Source of the DNA: Aeromicrobium sp. Root344
GTDB taxonomy: Bacteria > Actinomycetota > Actinomycetes > Propionibacteriales > Nocardioidaceae
Direction: 5' to 3'
Assembly: GCF_001425755.1 (NCBI RefSeq)
Contig: NZ_LMDH01000001.1
Coordinates: 647,308-711,307 of the forward strand
DNA: 64,000 bases
Part shown: positions 1 to 10,662 of the stretch, piece after piece
Layout: each line of letters starts with the position of its first letter
How positions within the stretch are numbered: position 1 is the first letter of the stretch
Notes under the pieces: model-generated
What the model was told of the DNA's origin: nothing
The model's input: only the letters and a program-made list of their open reading frames with translations
Database searches by the model: none
Made by a program: the position numbers and the translations under genes

Positions 1-2
1 TC

Positions 3-602
3 TGGCTCCTTGCCGCGGTCGTCGTCGCCGCGGTGTTCCAGCGTGGCGAGCACGTCGTACGCGAGCTCCCCTGGCGGGTCGCAGCTCTCATCGTCGGCGC
101 CGGCCTCATCCGTACGACCGGCATGAACGCGCACGCGACACAAGGCGCGCAGCCCACCTGGGGTGCGGCAGCCGAGTTCCTGCACCTCGTCGGCATCAGC
201 GCCTGGGTCGGTGGTCTCACGGTCATGACCGTGTGCCTGCTCCCACGGCGCAGCATCGCCGAGCTCGAGCGGATCGTGCCGAAGTTCTCGACCATCGCGA
301 TGCTCTCGGTGCTCGTCATCGTGTCGTCCGGGCTGATCCTGAGCTGGCAGATCATCAGCTCCGTCGACGGCTTCTGGCACACCCACTACGCCCGTGTGCT
401 GTTCATCAAGCTCGCGCTCTTCGCCACGGTCCTGCTGGCGGCGATGAAGAGCAAGAGCTGGGTGGGGCGCAACCTGACCAGCTCGACCCACCGGGGCTCG
501 GCCGTCGGCGCGTTCATCGCGTCGGTCGCGACCGAGACCGTGCTGGTCATCGCCGTGCTCGGCGCCGCAAGTGTCCTGGTCACCTCCAGTCCAGGCGTGT
601 GA
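3..602 (+). CDS. CopD-like copper resistance membrane protein, C-terminal part
   Basis: The reading frame is already open at base 3, so the 5' end lies outside the window and the GTG at 33 is probably internal. The visible ~199 residues are hydrophobic, with about five membrane segments. They include a His-containing helix (EFLHLVGISAWVGGL) and a later WHTHYARVLFIKL segment, both typical of the CopD/YcnJ C-terminal domain implicated in copper movement across the membrane. Two cupredoxins follow on the same strand, which supports a copper role. The substrate is inferred from the family. The missing N-terminus could carry a CopC domain or more membrane helices. Confidence 0.75.
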   Translation, partial: WLLAAVVVAAVFQRGEHVVRELPWRVAALIVGAGLIRTTGMNAHATQGAQPTWGAAAEFLHLVGISAWVGGLTVMTVCLLPRRSIAELERIVPKFSTIAMLSVLVIVSSGLILSWQIISSVDGFWHTHYARVLFIKLALFATVLLAAMKSKSWVGRNLTSSTHRGSAVGAFIASVATETVLVIAVLGAASVLVTSSPGV

Positions 603-643: not shown

Positions 644-1339
644 ATGAACCCCACACCGTCCACCAGTCCATTCCGATCTCCGGAGCTGCGCAACCGCAGT
701 CTCGTGGTGGTCGCCCTGCTGGCAGCGCTGGCGGCTGCCCTGTCGTTGTTCGCGCTGCGTACGTCGCCAGCGACCACCGACGCTCTCGCGCCTGCTGCCT
801 CGGTCACCGGCACCAGCTCGCCCGGTGGTCTCCTCGACGGTCTCGTGCCGGCCGCGAGCCCCGTCACGACACCGGTCGTCAAGACCGCACCGGCGGCAGC
901 GCCGGCTGCGGCGACACCTGCTGCGGCGAAGGGCGGCACGGCGGCACCCGCACCGGCAGCGACGACCGATCCGATGGCGATGCCGGCGCCGAGTGACGTG
1001 TGCACCGGGCTCGAGTCCTCGGTCGACGTGTTCCTGCAGCACCTCTACGCAGCGCACCTCGAGACGGGCGTCGGCCAGCAGGTCACCGACGCCCTGAACC
1101 TCGACCAGTACCTCAAGACGCACCTCGTCCTGGTCGAGAACATGCTCAAGCCGCTCCTCGGAGGCTCCCAGCAGACGTTGGCCGCGTTCCTGCAGCACGT
1201 CTACTCGGCACACCTCGAGACGAGCGTCGGTCAGCAGGTCACCGACGCCCTGGCGATCGACCAGTACGCCAAGACCCACACGGTGTGGGTCGAGAGCCTG
1301 ATCAAGCCGCTCATCGGTGCCGATCTCAGCTCGTGCTGA
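644..1339 (+). CDS. Secreted or anchored protein with a tandem His/Glu repeat domain, function unknown
   Basis: Not a family I recognise. The 231-residue product has an N-terminal hydrophobic helix (about residues 18-37), a long Ala/Pro/Thr linker (about 40-117) and a 114-residue C-terminal domain bounded by Cys120 and the final Cys231. The domain is two units with a 52-residue period. Each reads FLQH-x4-HLE, then GQQVTDAL, QY-x-KTH, VE and KPL. His133, 138 and 160 recur as His185, 190 and 212. The same domain follows a cupredoxin in the next gene, so a periplasmic metal-related role is plausible but unproven. The Cys pair could form a disulfide. ATG 644 was chosen because it begins a good signal-anchor. 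Confidence 0.8.
   Translation: MNPTPSTSPFRSPELRNRSLVVVALLAALAAALSLFALRTSPATTDALAPAASVTGTSSPGGLLDGLVPAASPVTTPVVKTAPAAAPAAATPAAAKGGTAAPAPAATTDPMAMPAPSDVCTGLESSVDVFLQHLYAAHLETGVGQQVTDALNLDQYLKTHLVLVENMLKPLLGGSQQTLAAFLQHVYSAHLETSVGQQVTDALAIDQYAKTHTVWVESLIKPLIGADLSSC
1031..1321 (+). repeat. Repeat pair, copy 1 (two units of 52-residue period)
   Basis: Unit a starts at 1031 and unit b at 1187, each opening with codons for FLQH. They are homologous to the pair at 2079-2369. Unit a of this gene matches unit a of the other gene better than its own unit b, so the unit duplication came before the gene duplication. Nucleotide similarity between the two a units is very high over long runs, suggesting recent duplication or gene conversion. 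Confidence 0.85.
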
Positions 1340-1360
1340 TCCTGTCCCCCATCCAGACAA

Positions 1361-1399
1361 CCGGAGCTCTGGCCGAGTCGCAGTCGGCCAGCTGTCCGG
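1361..1399 (+). terminator. Hairpin between the first two repeat-protein genes
   Basis: Inner arms CTGGCCGA (1369-1376) and TCGGCCAG (1384-1391) enclose a 7-base loop. Outer arms CCGGA (1361-1365) and TCCGG (1395-1399) extend the stem across a 3x3 internal loop. No T-run follows, so it may act as a weak terminator or mRNA stabiliser. The segment around the loop resembles that of the hairpin at 2401-2439. Confidence 0.5.
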
Positions 1400-1430
1400 G
1401 TGAACCACAACCCACAGAAGGAGCGGCTCG

Positions 1431-2387
1431 ATGAGACCACGCATGACCAGCACGACCAGCAGGACCGACACCCACCCGACCCCGAAGCGATGGGGTCTCA
1501 TGGCGCTCGTGATCGGCGGGGTGCTCACCGCGATCGTGTCCGTCGCCGGGCTCTCCGCCGGAGCGTCCGAGTCCTCGGACACCCTCTCGGCGAGCGCCGC
1601 GACGACGAAGGCCAAGGCCGCTGCGGCCTCGGCCACAGCCGCCTCTGCGGCCACTGCCACGAGCACCACGACGAAGGCGGCGGTCACGAAGCAGGTGATG
1701 ATCGAGAACTACAAGTTCACCCCTGCGTCCTTGACCGTCGCCGTGGGCGACACCGTCAAGTGGACCAACATGGACACGGCGCCCCACACGGTGACGGTCA
1801 CGAGCGGCCCGGTGAAGTTCAACTCCGGAAACCTCTCCAAGGGGCAGAGCTTCTCGTACACGTTCAAGACGCCCGGTACGTACTCGTACTACTGCGCGGT
1901 GCACCCGGACATGACGGCCAAGGTCACGGTGACGGGCTCCGGCACGACCCCGACGCCGACGCCGACCACGCCGACGCCCAAGCCCACTGACACGCCGACG
2001 CCCACACCGACGCCGACGATGCCGCCGATGGGCGGCGGGGACGACGTCTGCACGGGCCTGGACTCGACGGTCAACGTGTTCCTGCAGCACCTCTACGCAG
2101 CGCACCTCGAGACGAGCGTCGGGCAGCAGGTCACTGACGCCCTGAGCCTCGACCAGTACCTCAAGACCCACCTGGTCCTGGTCGAGAACATGCTCAAGCC
2201 GTTGCTCGGCGGGGTCCAGTCAACGCTGGACACGTTCCTGCAGCACGTCTATGCCGCGCACCTGGAGACTGGGGTCGGCCAGCAGGTGACCGACGCACTC
2301 GCGATCAACCAGTACGTCAAGACGCACACGGTGCTCGTCGAGAACATGATCAAGCCGCTGGTCGGTGAGGATCTGAGCTCCTGCTAG
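1431..2387 (+). CDS. Cupredoxin (plastocyanin-like) fused to the tandem His/Glu repeat domain
   Basis: The 318-residue product has a signal-anchor helix (about 22-42), a Ser/Ala/Thr linker, and a cupredoxin domain (about 85-169) with a complete type-1 copper set: His119, Cys155, His158 and Met161. A Pro-Thr linker (about 171-200) follows, then the repeat domain (205-318) bounded by Cys207 and Cys318. It probably binds copper outside the membrane. The C-terminal domain is unfamiliar and is shared with the preceding gene. ATG 1431 follows an AGAAGGAG Shine-Dalgarno sequence. What the repeat domain does, for example dimerisation, partner docking or metal storage, cannot be decided from sequence. 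Confidence 0.85.
   Translation: MRPRMTSTTSRTDTHPTPKRWGLMALVIGGVLTAIVSVAGLSAGASESSDTLSASAATTKAKAAAASATAASAATATSTTTKAAVTKQVMIENYKFTPASLTVAVGDTVKWTNMDTAPHTVTVTSGPVKFNSGNLSKGQSFSYTFKTPGTYSYYCAVHPDMTAKVTVTGSGTTPTPTPTTPTPKPTDTPTPTPTPTMPPMGGGDDVCTGLDSTVNVFLQHLYAAHLETSVGQQVTDALSLDQYLKTHLVLVENMLKPLLGGVQSTLDTFLQHVYAAHLETGVGQQVTDALAINQYVKTHTVLVENMIKPLVGEDLSSC
2079..2369 (+). repeat. Repeat pair, copy 2
   Basis: Unit a starts at 2079 and unit b at 2235, homologous to 1031-1321. The His and Glu positions (FLQH, HLE, KTH, VE) are invariant in all four units, while surface positions vary (N/S/D, G/S, L/V/A). This pattern suggests selection on those residues. Confidence 0.85.
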
Positions 2388-2482: not shown

Positions 2483-3139
2483 ATGTCATCTCGGCTCTCC
2501 ACCGCTCCCCGGAAGGGTCCGCGGGTCCTGCTCGCCAGCCTCCTCGCTCTCCTCACCGTCCTGGTGTGGCCGGCCTCCGAGGCCTCGGCCGCGACGCACC
2601 AGATCACGATCAAGAGCTATGCGTATGGGTCCGGCTCGATGAGCATCACGCAGGGTGACACCGTCACGTGGACCAACCAGGACAGCGTTCCGCACGACGT
2701 CGTCGTCACCAGCGGGCCGGTGAAGTTCCGTTCGCCGATGCTGACGAAGGGCAAGAGCTGGAGCTACACGTTCACCTCGGCCGGCGCCTACTCCTACACG
2801 TGCAGCGTCCACCCGGACATGCACGCGACGATCTCGGCCAAGGCGAAGCCGGCCGCGCCTGCTCCAGCCGCCACGACCCCGGCCGCAGCCGCGCCGAGTG
2901 CCGCAGCGCCGACGACGCCGACCACCACCGCCACGACACCCGCCCCCAGGACCACGACCGAGGCACCTGCGCCCGCGCCGGACTCCGCGTACGTCGCCAC
3001 CACGGCCGACGACAGCCCCTCGCTCGATCCCATGCTCCTGCTGCTCGGGCTCTCCACGGCGATCGTCGTGTTCTGCCTCCTCCTGATGGCGTCCCGCCCC
3101 CACGCCGCCACGACCTCCGGCGACCCCGATGGCGACTGA
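2483..3139 (+). CDS. Membrane-anchored cupredoxin
   Basis: The 218-residue product has a signal peptide (to about residue 37, ending SEASAA) and a cupredoxin domain (about 38-118) with copper ligands His71, Cys107, His110 and Met113. An Ala/Pro/Thr linker leads to a single C-terminal membrane helix (about 184-204) with a short cytoplasmic tail. The domain closely resembles that of the upstream fusion (shared VTSGPVKF and SVHPDM-type motifs), so the two are probably paralogues. It likely carries electrons or copper at the outer membrane face. Its 3' end overlaps the PepSY gene by 11 bases, implying co-translation. Confidence 0.88.
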   Translation: MSSRLSTAPRKGPRVLLASLLALLTVLVWPASEASAATHQITIKSYAYGSGSMSITQGDTVTWTNQDSVPHDVVVTSGPVKFRSPMLTKGKSWSYTFTSAGAYSYTCSVHPDMHATISAKAKPAAPAPAATTPAAAAPSAAAPTTPTTTATTPAPRTTTEAPAPAPDSAYVATTADDSPSLDPMLLLLGLSTAIVVFCLLLMASRPHAATTSGDPDGD

Positions 3140-4544
3140 CACGCTGGCGCCCGCGCGCCGCGACGCCAAGGAGCGCAAGCCGAGCGGTGGGTTGTTCCGC
3201 GCGTTCTGGCGCTGGCACTTCTACGCCGCGTTCATCGTGGCCCCGATCCTGCTGGTGCTGGCCTCGACCGGGCTCATCTACCTCCTGCGGTTCCAGATCG
3301 AGCCGCTGATGCACGCCGACGTCATGAAGGTCGAGCAGCCGGCCGGAGCGACGCAGCGGGTGCCGTACGAGGACCAGCGCGCCGCCGTCGCCAAGGCGTA
3401 CCCGAAGGCCACGATCGCGTCGATGACCGAGCCGAAGGGCGACGACCGGTCGACCGACTTCTACCTCAGCCTGCCGGACGGCTCGAGCCGCGACGCGTAC
3501 GTCAACCCGTGGACCGGCGAGGTGCTCGGCGAGCTCAATCCCGACACGACACTCAGCGGCCTGGCGGTACGCCTGCACACCAACATGATGCTCGGCTCCA
3601 CCGGCGACATCCTGATGGAGCTCGGCGTGTGCTGGGCGATCGTGATGGCGCTGACCGGCTACTACCTGTTCATCCGCGGCCGAGCCGCGCGTCTGCGGCG
3701 CCGTCTCTCGGGCGCCGCCGGGTCAGCGATGCGCAGCAGGCACGCCGTCATCGGCTCGGTCGTCGGCGTGAGCCTGCTGGTCCTGCTGGTCTCGGGACTG
3801 CCGTGGACGGCCTTCTGGGGCAAGCACGCGCAGACCATGGCCACGGACCACAGCACCTCGATGTGGGGCAGTGATCCCGGCGGGGTGTCCAAGAAGGGTT
3901 CCACGCTGGACGAGTCCTTGCCGCACAGCCACGCTCACGAGATCCCGTGGGCGCAGGGCGACTCCACGGTGCCGCAGTCGGCCAAGCCGGGCAAGGATGT
4001 GTCAATCGCCAACATCGACACCGCCGTCGCCGTCGCCGACAAGGCCGGGCTCCACCACCCGCTGACGATCGCGCTGCCCACGGACGACAAAGGCGTCTTC
4101 TCCGCGATCAGCTACGCGTTCCACGACCCGTCACGGGAGAAGACCGTGCACATCGACCAGTACGGCGGGCAGGTCGTCGGCACGTACGGCTTCGCTGACT
4201 ATCCCGCTCTGGCCAAGCTCGTCTCGCAAGGCATCGGGCTGCACGAAGGGCGCAGCTTCGGGCCGGTCAGCTTCTGGGCCGCGGCGCTGTCGTGCCTCAT
4301 GGTGATCTTCATGTGCCTGTCGGGCCCGATGATGTGGTGGCGGCGGCGACCCAGGGGCGGCGGATCCGTGGCAGCACCACGGGGTCGGATGCCGCTGCGT
4401 GGCAGCCCGCTGCTTGCGGTCGCGATCGTCGCGCTCGGGGTCTTCCTGCCGTTCTTCGGCATCTCGTTGCTCGTCGCGCTGCTCGTCGACCAGCTGGTGC
4501 TGCGCCGCATCGCGCGACTGCAGACCTGGTTCAACGTGGTCTAG
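3129..4544 (+). CDS. PepSY-associated membrane protein
   Basis: The 471-residue product resembles PepSY-associated TM proteins, often annotated as iron-regulated or reductase-like membrane proteins. A first helix (about 34-54) is preceded by FWRWHFYAAF. An extracytoplasmic PepSY-like segment follows (about 75-140), then LHTNMMLGSTGD leading into further helices, a second large outside loop (about 235-360) and C-terminal helices (about 380-465). The family may reduce or handle metal-siderophore complexes; here the neighbours suggest electron exchange with cupredoxins. It overlaps the preceding gene by 11 bases and converges on efeB with a 4-base overlap (4541-4544). Confidence 0.8.
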   Translation: MATDTLAPARRDAKERKPSGGLFRAFWRWHFYAAFIVAPILLVLASTGLIYLLRFQIEPLMHADVMKVEQPAGATQRVPYEDQRAAVAKAYPKATIASMTEPKGDDRSTDFYLSLPDGSSRDAYVNPWTGEVLGELNPDTTLSGLAVRLHTNMMLGSTGDILMELGVCWAIVMALTGYYLFIRGRAARLRRRLSGAAGSAMRSRHAVIGSVVGVSLLVLLVSGLPWTAFWGKHAQTMATDHSTSMWGSDPGGVSKKGSTLDESLPHSHAHEIPWAQGDSTVPQSAKPGKDVSIANIDTAVAVADKAGLHHPLTIALPTDDKGVFSAISYAFHDPSREKTVHIDQYGGQVVGTYGFADYPALAKLVSQGIGLHEGRSFGPVSFWAAALSCLMVIFMCLSGPMMWWRRRPRGGGSVAAPRGRMPLRGSPLLAVAIVALGVFLPFFGISLLVALLVDQLVLRRIARLQTWFNVV

Positions 4545-5839
4545 TCGAAGAGCCTCTCGCCCCAGAAACCCTTGCGGCCCACGCCGGGCGGGCAGGCGAA
4601 CAGACCGGAGCTGACGTGCACGATGTACTCGTTGAGCAGGTCGTTCTGCGAGCCCGCGAGCGAGCGCTGGACCTGCACGAACTGCTTCTCGGGGTCACGC
4701 TGGTAGGCGATGAAGAACAGCCCGGCCGACAGCTGTCCGAGCCCGTCCGAGCCGTCGACGAAGTTGTAGCCTCGCCGCAGCAGCTTGGCGCCGTGGTTGA
4801 AGTCGGGGTGCGCGAGGCGTACGTGCGACTTCATGTCGATGACCGGTGCGCCGCGATCGTTCTTCTTCTTGAAGTCGATCGTGGCGAACTCATCGCCGCC
4901 AGACAGCGGGCCACCGGAGCCCTTGGCGCGGCCGATGATGTTCTCCTGGCCCTCGAGGGGCTCACGGTCCCAGATCTCGATGCGCATGTTGATCTTGCGA
5001 CTGACCAGGTAGGAGCCGCCGACGAGCCAGTCCGGGCCGTCCTCCTCGGACACCCAGACGAAGTCCTCGACGTCCTTCTTGTCCTCGACCTTGATGTTGG
5101 CCGTGCCGTCCTTGAAGCCCAGCATGTTGCGAGCCGTGACCTGCGCAGACGACGTCGAGGACGTACGCCCGAAGCCCATCTGCGAGTAGCGCACCGACGC
5201 CCGGCCGAAGGCGATGCGTACGAGGTTGCGCACCGCGTGCACCGCGACCTGCGGGTCGTTGGCGCAGGCCTGGATCGCGAGATCGCCGTCGCTGATCGCC
5301 GGATCGAGCTGGTCGCCGGAGAACGCGGGCAGCTCCTTGAGCTTGTCGGGCAGCTTGCCGTCGAGGCCGAACCGGGGCTTGCCCTTGGCGTCGACGAACA
5401 GGCTGCGGCCGAAGCCCACCGTGATGGTGAGCCCTGACGGCGGCAGGCCGAGCGCCTCACCGGTGTCCTCCGGCGGCGCGAACGGCGACCCGGACACGGC
5501 GCCGAACTTGCCGACGTCGTTGCCCTGCGTCATCTGTCGCGACGCGTCGGTCCAGTCCTTGAGCAACGAGATCAGGTCGGCGCGCTCCTCGCTCGTCATG
5601 TCGAGCGTGACGAAGTAGAGACGGTCCTGCGCCGGCGTGACGATGCCGGCCTGGTGGACGCCCTCGAACGGGATCGGCTGGGCATCGGGATCGGGGACGC
5701 CGGCGGTCGGCTCGTCGCCCTGGCGACCCACGGCGTAGCCACCGCCGGCGCCGGCACCGACAGCCAGCGCACCGATGCCCGCCGCTCCGATCAGCTTGCG
5801 CCTGGAGAGCCCGCTCGTGGATTCGTTCGTCTCGGACAT
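4541..5839 (-). CDS. efeB: Dyp-type haem peroxidase EfeB of the EfeUOB-type iron system
   Basis: The 432-residue DyP peroxidase has an N-terminal Tat signal (SRRKLIGAAG, about 12-21). The DyP hallmark GFKDG lies at 241-245 and the probable proximal haem ligand is His339 in SHVR. It is exported folded with haem and, in the EfeUOB system, oxidises Fe(II) or acts on haem in the periplasm. It starts 9 bases after efeO stops, so the two form one transcript. No efeU permease gene lies in the window. Confidence 0.93.
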   Translation of the reverse strand: MSETNESTSGLSRRKLIGAAGIGALAVGAGAGGGYAVGRQGDEPTAGVPDPDAQPIPFEGVHQAGIVTPAQDRLYFVTLDMTSEERADLISLLKDWTDASRQMTQGNDVGKFGAVSGSPFAPPEDTGEALGLPPSGLTITVGFGRSLFVDAKGKPRFGLDGKLPDKLKELPAFSGDQLDPAISDGDLAIQACANDPQVAVHAVRNLVRIAFGRASVRYSQMGFGRTSSTSSAQVTARNMLGFKDGTANIKVEDKKDVEDFVWVSEEDGPDWLVGGSYLVSRKINMRIEIWDREPLEGQENIIGRAKGSGGPLSGGDEFATIDFKKKNDRGAPVIDMKSHVRLAHPDFNHGAKLLRRGYNFVDGSDGLGQLSAGLFFIAYQRDPEKQFVQVQRSLAGSQNDLLNEYIVHVSSGLFACPPGVGRKGFWGERLFD

Positions 5840-5848
5840 CAGTTCAGG

Positions 5849-6973
5849 CTACGCAGACTCGGCAACCACGGCGGCGACGCGGCTGATCGGTTCGCTGACA
5901 GCGGCCACCAGGTCGGACAGGCGCTTGACCTGCGCCTTCGTGAGCTTGTCGTAGAACGTCCAGTCGCCGTTGTCGTCCTGGTACTGGTCGAGGTCCTCAT
6001 CGAGCGTCTTGAACCTGGCGTCGAGCTCCTTGACCAGGGCGGGATCCTGCTTCACGAGCACGGGGCGCAGCGCCGCGATGGCGGCCTGCGAACCCTCGAT
6101 GTTGGCCTTGAAGTCCCAGAGGTCGGTGTGGCTGAACTCGTCCTCCTCGCCGGTGATCTTGCTCGTCGCGACCTCGTCGAGCAGGCCCTTGGAGCCCTGG
6201 GCCAGCTCGAGCGCCGTGAGCGGCGCGTCCTTGCCGAGCGCCACGATCTTCTTGACGTTGACGAGCAGGTTGTCGGCGTAGGTGGCCATGCCCTCGGTGT
6301 TGTTGTCGACCCAGAGCTGCTTCTCGATGCGGTGCCAGCCGGTGAAGTCGCGCTTCTCGGCCTTGGCGTCGGCCTCGCGGCCGTCGGTCAGGGGATCGAG
6401 GTCGCCGAACTTCTCGGCGACGGGCTCGATGCGCTCCCAGTACGTACGCGCGATCGGGTAGAGCTTCTTGGCCTCGGCGACATCGCCCTCCTTGACGGCG
6501 GTGACGAACTCCTCGGTCTTGGCGATCAGCGCGACGGTCTGCGAACTGACGTAGCGCTCGTACGACGTCGCCGCGGCCTTGAGCTGCTCGGAGTCGGACA
6601 GCTTCTTGGCAGCCTCACCGGTGACGGTGATCTTCTGGCGGATGCCGTCGCCGACCATGCCGGGCTTGCACGCGCCCTGGTAGGTGCCCTTGGGCAGGTC
6701 GACCACGAGGTTGCGGGTCAGACCGGGGCCCACGTTCTCTACCTCGCCCATGATGCGATCGCCGTCGGCATACACGTAGAACTCGGTGACCTTGCTGCCC
6801 TTGTTGGTGACCTTGAACGTCGAGGGGCCGGCCTTGAGGTCGGTCTGCGAGACCTCGCACTTGGAGTCCGTGGCGCTGACCGTGAGCCCACCGGACGCCT
6901 TGGGGTCGGAGGCGCAGGCCGTGAGGCTCAGGGCGGCGATCGTCAGCACGCTGAGCGTGGCAAGAGGCTTCAT
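5849..6973 (-). CDS. efeO: Iron uptake lipoprotein EfeO (cupredoxin plus M75 domains)
   Basis: The 374-residue lipoprotein has a lipobox LTAC with Cys20, an EfeO-type cupredoxin domain (about 28-118, with Cys39, Cys102 and Met106 as possible ligands) and an M75 imelysin-like domain (about 130-370) with the HxxE metal motif HRIE at 214-217. It binds iron outside the membrane and normally hands it to EfeU. It is the first gene of efeOB, with an IdeR-type box 41 bases upstream of the ATG, so iron repression is expected. Confidence 0.93.
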   Translation of the reverse strand: MKPLATLSVLTIAALSLTACASDPKASGGLTVSATDSKCEVSQTDLKAGPSTFKVTNKGSKVTEFYVYADGDRIMGEVENVGPGLTRNLVVDLPKGTYQGACKPGMVGDGIRQKITVTGEAAKKLSDSEQLKAAATSYERYVSSQTVALIAKTEEFVTAVKEGDVAEAKKLYPIARTYWERIEPVAEKFGDLDPLTDGREADAKAEKRDFTGWHRIEKQLWVDNNTEGMATYADNLLVNVKKIVALGKDAPLTALELAQGSKGLLDEVATSKITGEEDEFSHTDLWDFKANIEGSQAAIAALRPVLVKQDPALVKELDARFKTLDEDLDQYQDDNGDWTFYDKLTKAQVKRLSDLVAAVSEPISRVAAVVAESA

Positions 6974-9495: not shown

Positions 9496-10662
9496 CTACT
9501 GGACGCCTCGTTGGATGTCGTCGAGCGACAGGTCGGGCAGCATGCCGGCGGGCTTGGTCGAGCGGCGCACGAGCACGGGCTGGACGTCGTCGCTCTCGCG
9601 GGCCAGGGCGTACTGCGTGCCGGCCAGCGCGAACCGGAGCGCCCGCGACAGCGAGCTGACCCTGGCGTCCGACGGACTGAGCTTGGGCGCCGCCGCCTTG
9701 ATCGCCATCGCCAGGATCGGCAGCGGGCCACCGTGGTTGGCCAGCTGGTCGCTGAAGCTGCGCACCTTGGAGTCGGAGAGGACCTTCTTGATGATCGCCT
9801 TGTAGTCCTCCGGCGAGGTCGCGGCCTCGCCGTGGACGACGGGGATCTCCTGCGCCAGGGCGTGCCAGTTGACCTTGCCCTTGCCAGCGGCAGCCGGTGC
9901 CTGGCTCGCGGACTTCTTGGCTGAAGCCTTCTTGGCGGGCTCAGCCTTCTTGGCGGCGGCCTTCTTGGCCGGCTTGTCCTCCTTGGCCGGCTTGTCCTCC
10001 TTGGCCGCGGCCTTCTTCGCCGTGGCCTTCGTCGCCCGCGGTTCGGGCTGCTCCTCGACTGCCGGCTTCTCGGCCGGCGCCTTGCGTGCGCTCTTGCGCG
10101 GGCGGCTCTCGGCCGGCGCTGCCTGCTCGCCGGACGAGAACAGCGGCTTGAGTGCTGCGACCGGCGGAGGCTTGGCGGCCAGCTTGAGCGTGACGTACTG
10201 GTCGACCTCGCGCTCGAGGACGTTGTTGGGGCGGTGGTCGGGAAGCGTCGCACCGACCACGTACTTGTTGAGCTCGTGCAGACGACGCACGAGCGGCACG
10301 AAGTCGCCGTCGGCGGACACGATCACGAAGACGTCTATCTGCTCCAGCTCGGCAGCCACGCGGAGGCAGTCGACGACGAGCACGATGTCAGCCGCGTTCT
10401 TCTCGGCCTTGCTGACCGAGAAGACCTGCACGGTCTGCACCCCGGCCCGCTCCACGTCGCGCCGGTAGTCTTCGAGCCCCAGGGCGTTCCAGTCGGCGTA
10501 CGCCCGCGCGACGGCGATGTTGCCGCCGTCAGCCGCCAACGCGGCGGCGGACTCGAGCTGCTTGAGGATGTCCTCCATCGACACATCAGGGATGTCGAGC
10601 TTGCCGTAACCCTTGAACAGGTTCTCGGCATCGATGAAGACAGCGACATTGCGGGTGGCCAC
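9496..10662 (-). CDS. NYN-domain (LabA/PIN-like) protein with C-terminal OST-HTH/LOTUS-like domain
   Basis: The 388-residue product starts with a NYN nuclease-like domain (about 1-165) with the acidic residues FIDAEN, VVDC and SADGDF expected for metal-dependent RNA cleavage. A Lys/Ala/Glu-rich low-complexity linker follows (about 190-275, with repeated EDKPAK). The C-terminal part (about 280-370; LAQEIP, YKAIIKKVL) resembles OST-HTH/LOTUS RNA-binding domains. RNA processing is the likely role; the target is unknown. It lies between guaB and guaB3. Confidence 0.85.
   Translation of the reverse strand: MATRNVAVFIDAENLFKGYGKLDIPDVSMEDILKQLESAAALAADGGNIAVARAYADWNALGLEDYRRDVERAGVQTVQVFSVSKAEKNAADIVLVVDCLRVAAELEQIDVFVIVSADGDFVPLVRRLHELNKYVVGATLPDHRPNNVLEREVDQYVTLKLAAKPPPVAALKPLFSSGEQAAPAESRPRKSARKAPAEKPAVEEQPEPRATKATAKKAAAKEDKPAKEDKPAKKAAAKKAEPAKKASAKKSASQAPAAAGKGKVNWHALAQEIPVVHGEAATSPEDYKAIIKKVLSDSKVRSFSDQLANHGGPLPILAMAIKAAAPKLSPSDARVSSLSRALRFALAGTQYALARESDDVQPVLVRRSTKPAGMLPDLSLDDIQRGVQ

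Follow-up and report, generated by a model that had tools for sequence, protein, structure and literature searches.

A histidine-repeat domain linked to CopD and type-1 cupredoxins in an unnamed actinobacterial protein family

Copper recognition and acquisition outside the bacterial membrane are called poorly understood (PMC12362106). In Bacillus subtilis, the CopC-CopD protein YcnJ supports respiration in copper-starved cells, and Cu(II) is exchanged between it and an extracellular partner; it has been proposed that such partners retain Cu(II) outside the membrane or exchange it there (PMC13344008, PMC12362106). The loci described here resemble YcnJ/YcnI in that a CopC-CopD membrane protein, fused here too, is encoded together with extracellular copper-binding proteins, but differ in pairing it with a cupredoxin that carries His repeats; no YcnI (DUF1775) gene was noticed at the loci read. 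As in a YcnJ-type cassette, CopD lies beside the protein and is kept among relatives: our survey of gene neighbours finds it directly upstream and in the same orientation at 36 of the 39 loci. Amicyanin- and plastocyanin-type cupredoxins offer a further comparison, since the N-terminal domain of P0002, the fused protein of the locus, has all four type-1 ligands; however, it reaches no NCBIfam equivalog cut-off (57 of 110 bits for amicyanin), and its C-terminal repeat is absent from those cupredoxins. The copper storage proteins Csp1 and Csp3 are helical bundles that bind copper on several inward side chains (PMC5171941), and we propose that the repeat domain would likewise hold copper in a helical bundle. 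Csp proteins are rich in Cys, whereas the invariant residues of the repeat domain are His; the many inward Cys of the Csp four-helix bundle have no counterpart in a domain with at most two Cys.

The window analysed is a stretch of 64,000 nucleotides from Aeromicrobium sp. Root344, whose genome is 3.87 Mb and whose closest named relative in our searches is Aeromicrobium ginsengisoli. Its copper locus shows the following features.

1..602, plus strand: CopD half of a CopC-CopD fusion of 434 aa; the gene starts 703 bases before the window (Pfam CopD 6.7e-17 and CopC 5.5e-10 for the whole gene)
644..1339, plus strand: P0001, 231 aa (translation), with orthologues in A. ginsengisoli and genome G035
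974..985, plus strand: MAMP motif (Met111, Met113) directly before the domain of P0001, read from the sequence
1001..1336, plus strand: His-repeat domain copy A, C120 to C231, with His 133, 138 and 160 in unit 1 and His 185, 190 and 212 in unit 2
1431..2387, plus strand: P0002, 318 aa, consisting of a signal-anchor-like segment, a cupredoxin, a Pro/Thr linker and a two-unit His-repeat domain
1686..1931, plus strand: type-1 cupredoxin domain of P0002 (Pfam Copper-bind 4.5e-12, Cupredoxin_1 4.8e-11), with ligands H119, C155, H158 and M161
1932..2042, plus strand: Pro/Thr linker of P0002 with MPPM (Met197, Met200), read from the sequence
2049..2384, plus strand: His-repeat domain copy B, C207 to C318 (repeat alignment, BLASTP against copy A)
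2483..3139, plus strand: second cupredoxin with a C-terminal membrane anchor (TM), the kept downstream partner (Pfam Copper-bind 2.4e-09)
3129..4544, plus strand: PepSY_TM membrane protein (Pfam 2.1e-55)

An earlier note on this DNA held that two neighbouring genes end in the same 114-residue domain, which BLASTP bears out: the alignment of P0001 and P0002, which share a C-terminal domain of 114 residues, is identical at 97 of 119 positions (82%, E=4e-71). Its description of each domain as two units of 52-residue period with named motifs and a Cys at both ends also holds; F-L-Q-H-x4-H-L-E, GQQVTDAL, QYxKTH, VE and KPL recur in each of the window's four units at a spacing of 52 residues, and the Cys pair stands 10 residues ahead of the first unit and at the very last residue. 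P0001 runs from a signal-anchor-like hydrophobic segment (about residues 18-38) through an Ala/Pro-rich stretch ending in MAMP to the two-unit domain, and its translation contains no cupredoxin; at the position of MAMP, family members have MxM, HxM or HxxxH. The cupredoxin of P0002, which the note had taken for an intact type-1 domain, has its four ligands in place and scores above Pfam gathering (46.7 against 21.2 bits for Copper-bind, 43.1 against 27 for Cupredoxin_1). Codon comparison across three genomes gives a dN of 0.02-0.04 for the domain against a dS of 0.18-0.26, and a dN so far under dS indicates that the domain is under purifying selection. Gene conversion between copies A and B was considered and is not supported, with 4 sites in its favour against 21 paralogue-diagnostic ones.

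The repeat domain defines a real family without a name in the curated databases. Pfam, NCBIfam and PHROGs give no match of the domain above cut-off, a PDB sequence search gives no credible match, and Foldseek with the domain model returns nothing below E 2.8, in keeping with the note's failure to recognise the family. Pfam DUF5663 (PF18908) was considered and rejected: it scores 20.4 and 19.5 bits with the two proteins and 23.6 bits with the domain alone against a gathering cut-off of 23.7, and the match, at 20.4 to 23.6 bits, is local, lies over one unit, covers 35 of 84 positions and is found in 7 of 42 members. A plasmid search yielded matches to the cupredoxin part alone and none spanning most of the protein. 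In the literature outside subscription papers, we found neither CopD, a cupredoxin and YceI together nor any mention of DUF5663. By profile search the family occurs in three Aeromicrobium-like genomes (3 of the 37 genus genomes sampled), and a set of 392 genomes of the order yielded no carrier beyond these three; it is present in 33 of 297 genomes of the Pseudonocardiaceae, the family of Amycolatopsis and Kutzneria. Further carriers are two related, large genomes (G245 and G263), two distant genomes with three-unit proteins (G109 and G141) and G615, from a different class, where the domain consists of one unit. A scan of all bacterial and archaeal species used two short peptides as queries and does not establish absence outside Actinomycetota.

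Conservation was read from an alignment of 91 units of the family. H10, A14, H15, Q23 and H37 (unit numbering) are present in 91/91 units, and very little variation is seen at D26, D31, Y33 (or W), K35 and P47; the five invariant positions form a profile by which annotators can spot the domain. The note had described both His and Glu as recurring at fixed places. This stands for the His; however, E17 occurs in 72 and E42 in 71 of the 91 units, and distant members have lost the Glu and kept all three His. In a helical-wheel projection the hydrophobic face holds H15 (32 degrees off) and H37 (19 degrees off), with H10 at the edge (108 degrees), whereas E17 and E42, about 120-130 degrees from that face, point outward. 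Because the Glu vary across the wider family, the signature is one of His rather than His/Glu, and a His/Glu cluster is not supported. H10 and H15 are five residues, or 140 degrees, apart on one helix; ligands are usually spaced i,i+3 or i,i+4, and the three His might therefore not belong to one site. The helical repeat that the note suggested is supported: both low-confidence AF2 models (pLDDT 61 for the domain, computed from a shallow alignment of nine sequences, and 55 for the full-length protein, from which secondary structure alone was taken) agree on a long, a short and a long helix per unit. Proteins contain one, two or three units. The bracketing Cys are present in one-unit and two-unit members and absent from three-unit members, suggesting that a disulfide would be dispensable.

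A cupredoxin is fused to the repeats in 39 of the 45 proteins examined, and the His, Cys, His, Met set of type-1 ligands is complete in all 39. The repeats follow the cupredoxin in 38 of these and precede it in G615, as a single Cys-bounded unit. Five proteins are stand-alone copies, whose genes each immediately precede the gene of a fused copy and which, by the tree, arose independently two or more times. The one remaining non-fused protein comes from an interrupted gene in Kutzneria sp. 744, where unrelated, stop-rich sequence (L016, about 9650-9980) splits the cupredoxin from the repeats, through either a mobile insertion or an assembly fault. The linkers between cupredoxin and repeats consist almost wholly of Pro, Thr, Ser, Ala and Gly. 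Among their 1203 residues, 52 Met and 32 His together exceed all remaining residues outside those five types (50). At least two Met/His, as MxM, HSM or HPTTHP, are found in 35 of 38 linkers, many of which come from related species and so are not independent samples; the pair is missing from the other three. The exchange of Met for His at one place in the linker would be as expected for copper ligands.

Our neighbour counts were made by tblastn, because the script-made gene calls at the loci are partly wrong. Besides the CopD gene upstream, an additional cupredoxin follows downstream at 37 of the 39 (with L117's own cupredoxin left out of the count), and CopC is fused or close by in 17; the two distant three-unit members have no adjoining CopD. 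The copper context of the family is strong. The flanking CopD, cupredoxin, PepSY and EfeOB genes that the note listed are all present as described, and of the copper/iron handling it read from them the copper part is sustained. The iron part is not: in the window an EfeB-type peroxidase with a twin-arginine-like leader and EfeO, named from sequence, occupy 4541-6973 on the opposite strand, and EfeB/EfeO adjoin the copper cassette, each time on that strand, in 3/3 Aeromicrobium-like genomes and at no other locus, a confinement that, with the strand, leaves an iron role unsupported. PepSY_TM likewise adjoins the domain in the window and the two orthologous loci and at none of the others. Within the genus, a CopCD orthologue (93-95% identical) is found in exactly the three domain-bearing genomes, and thirteen of the other 46 genus genomes have CopCD matches of only 27-33%; this co-occurrence suggests that the cassette has been gained or lost as a block.

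Other genes recur at subsets of the loci. A YceI-like gene follows the domain gene in eight, namely after the single-unit domain gene of G615 (L033, 2610-3143) and in the Amycolatopsis-type loci L014, L017, L084-L086, L090 and L093, which suggests a recurrent link between cupredoxin and YceI. A DUF6802 protein is encoded 1-3 kb downstream of the domain gene in 12 related loci (L097-L107 and L109). In five loci a His/Pro-rich protein with no Pfam match (for instance L098:7939-8556, minus strand) lies between the GTPase-like genes upstream and CopD.

We propose that the domain serves in a CopC/CopD operon for copper uptake as an extracytoplasmic module that binds and relays copper, a reading to which we give a probability of about 50% and in which the binding itself, the identity of the metal as copper and the direction of transfer are all drawn from sequence and gene context. 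Each unit of about 52 residues would be a small three-helix element, in which two invariant His, one in helix 1 and one in helix 3, would face the unit core and the third would sit at the edge, together holding copper; the two Cys, where present, may close the module as a disulfide. The existence of members with one, two and three units makes it probable that every unit is a complete site by itself and not half of a site shared by two metals. The Met/His pair of the flexible linker could relay copper between repeats and cupredoxin; from there it would move on to the CopC/CopD protein encoded next door for import or, alternatively, stay outside the membrane as a reserve, as has been suggested for YcnI/YcnJ. 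A more specific version, which we put forward only tentatively, is that the unit represents a new modular fold, with three helices in 52 residues, three invariant His and one copper per unit, that is used in one to three copies on either side of a cupredoxin for extracellular copper capture and hand-over to actinobacterial CopD importers.

Ala14 and Gln23 equal the His in invariance, as would residues of a conserved interface or packing core, and this makes a docking or structural role the strongest rival: the repeats might fold into an adaptor of helices that keeps the cupredoxin close to CopD or to another envelope partner, its invariant His, Ala and Gln serving in packing or hydrogen bonding. 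The tight CopD neighbourhood would fit partner binding and the low-complexity linkers would fit a tether, but an adaptor would not need the Met/His pairs in those linkers, and, in a copper operon, ligands are the simpler reading of three His kept in every unit, two of them on the buried face; we regard this role as rather improbable. Less probable again is a redox site in which two units together form a dinuclear copper center with three His per metal, loosely of type 3, and act as a cuprous or phenol oxidase or in O2 binding, fed by the cupredoxin. The two-unit form is indeed the commonest; its helical pairs present 3 + 3 His, and it is joined to a domain of the electron-transfer type. Type-3 copper sites, however, are not known to use an i,i+5 His spacing, the domain has no sequence match among solved structures, and members with one unit and with three exist.

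Hemerythrin HHE domains share with the repeat domain helical hairpins with His, and helix 3 of the unit reads H-x4-E-x4-P, the register of hemerythrin helices B and D, so that a divergent diiron domain for O2, NO or iron handling has to be weighed. Hemerythrins head the VIA-align list obtained with the pLDDT 61 model (2awc, Z 5.8, rmsd 5.6, 105 aligned; 3v5z, Z 5.4, rmsd 6.0, 104 aligned), yet a Z below 8 is the stated noise range for helical bundles. Weak hmmscan hints, with Pfam Hemerythrin in 5 of 42 members (best 0.014) and a hemerythrin-type DnrN model also in 5 of 42 (best 0.0083), are set against the PF01814 gathering score, which none of the 42 members reaches, the window copy not being reported even at E 0.1. 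Neither kind of hint finds support from hhalign: against 30 hemerythrin domains the profile obtains a probability of 0.7% and a score of 13.9, where the reversed profile obtains 12.8 and 2 of 60 column shuffles matched the score, and broader profiles and unit profiles do no better than reversed controls. Since the Glu of the motif is moreover variable and outward-pointing, hemerythrin homology is not supported and a diiron role appears very unlikely. A true hemerythrin-domain protein (PF01814, E 2.5e-15) is encoded separately from the repeat domain about 8.4 kb before the window (L119, 326-883). Two invariant His on the buried faces of two helices could also serve as bis-His ligands of a heme, with H15 and H37 as the pair and electrons exchanged with the cupredoxin; no heme-related gene is conserved nearby, however, EfeB and PepSY_TM being limited to Aeromicrobium-like genomes, and we consider a heme module highly doubtful.

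Extracytoplasmic copper binding and relay is therefore the reading we prefer. The family, currently missed by both Pfam and NCBIfam, connects an uncharacterised His-repeat domain with CopD and with complete cupredoxins across dozens of actinobacterial genomes, and concrete genes and residues are now named with which the capture and transfer of copper outside the membrane can be tested.
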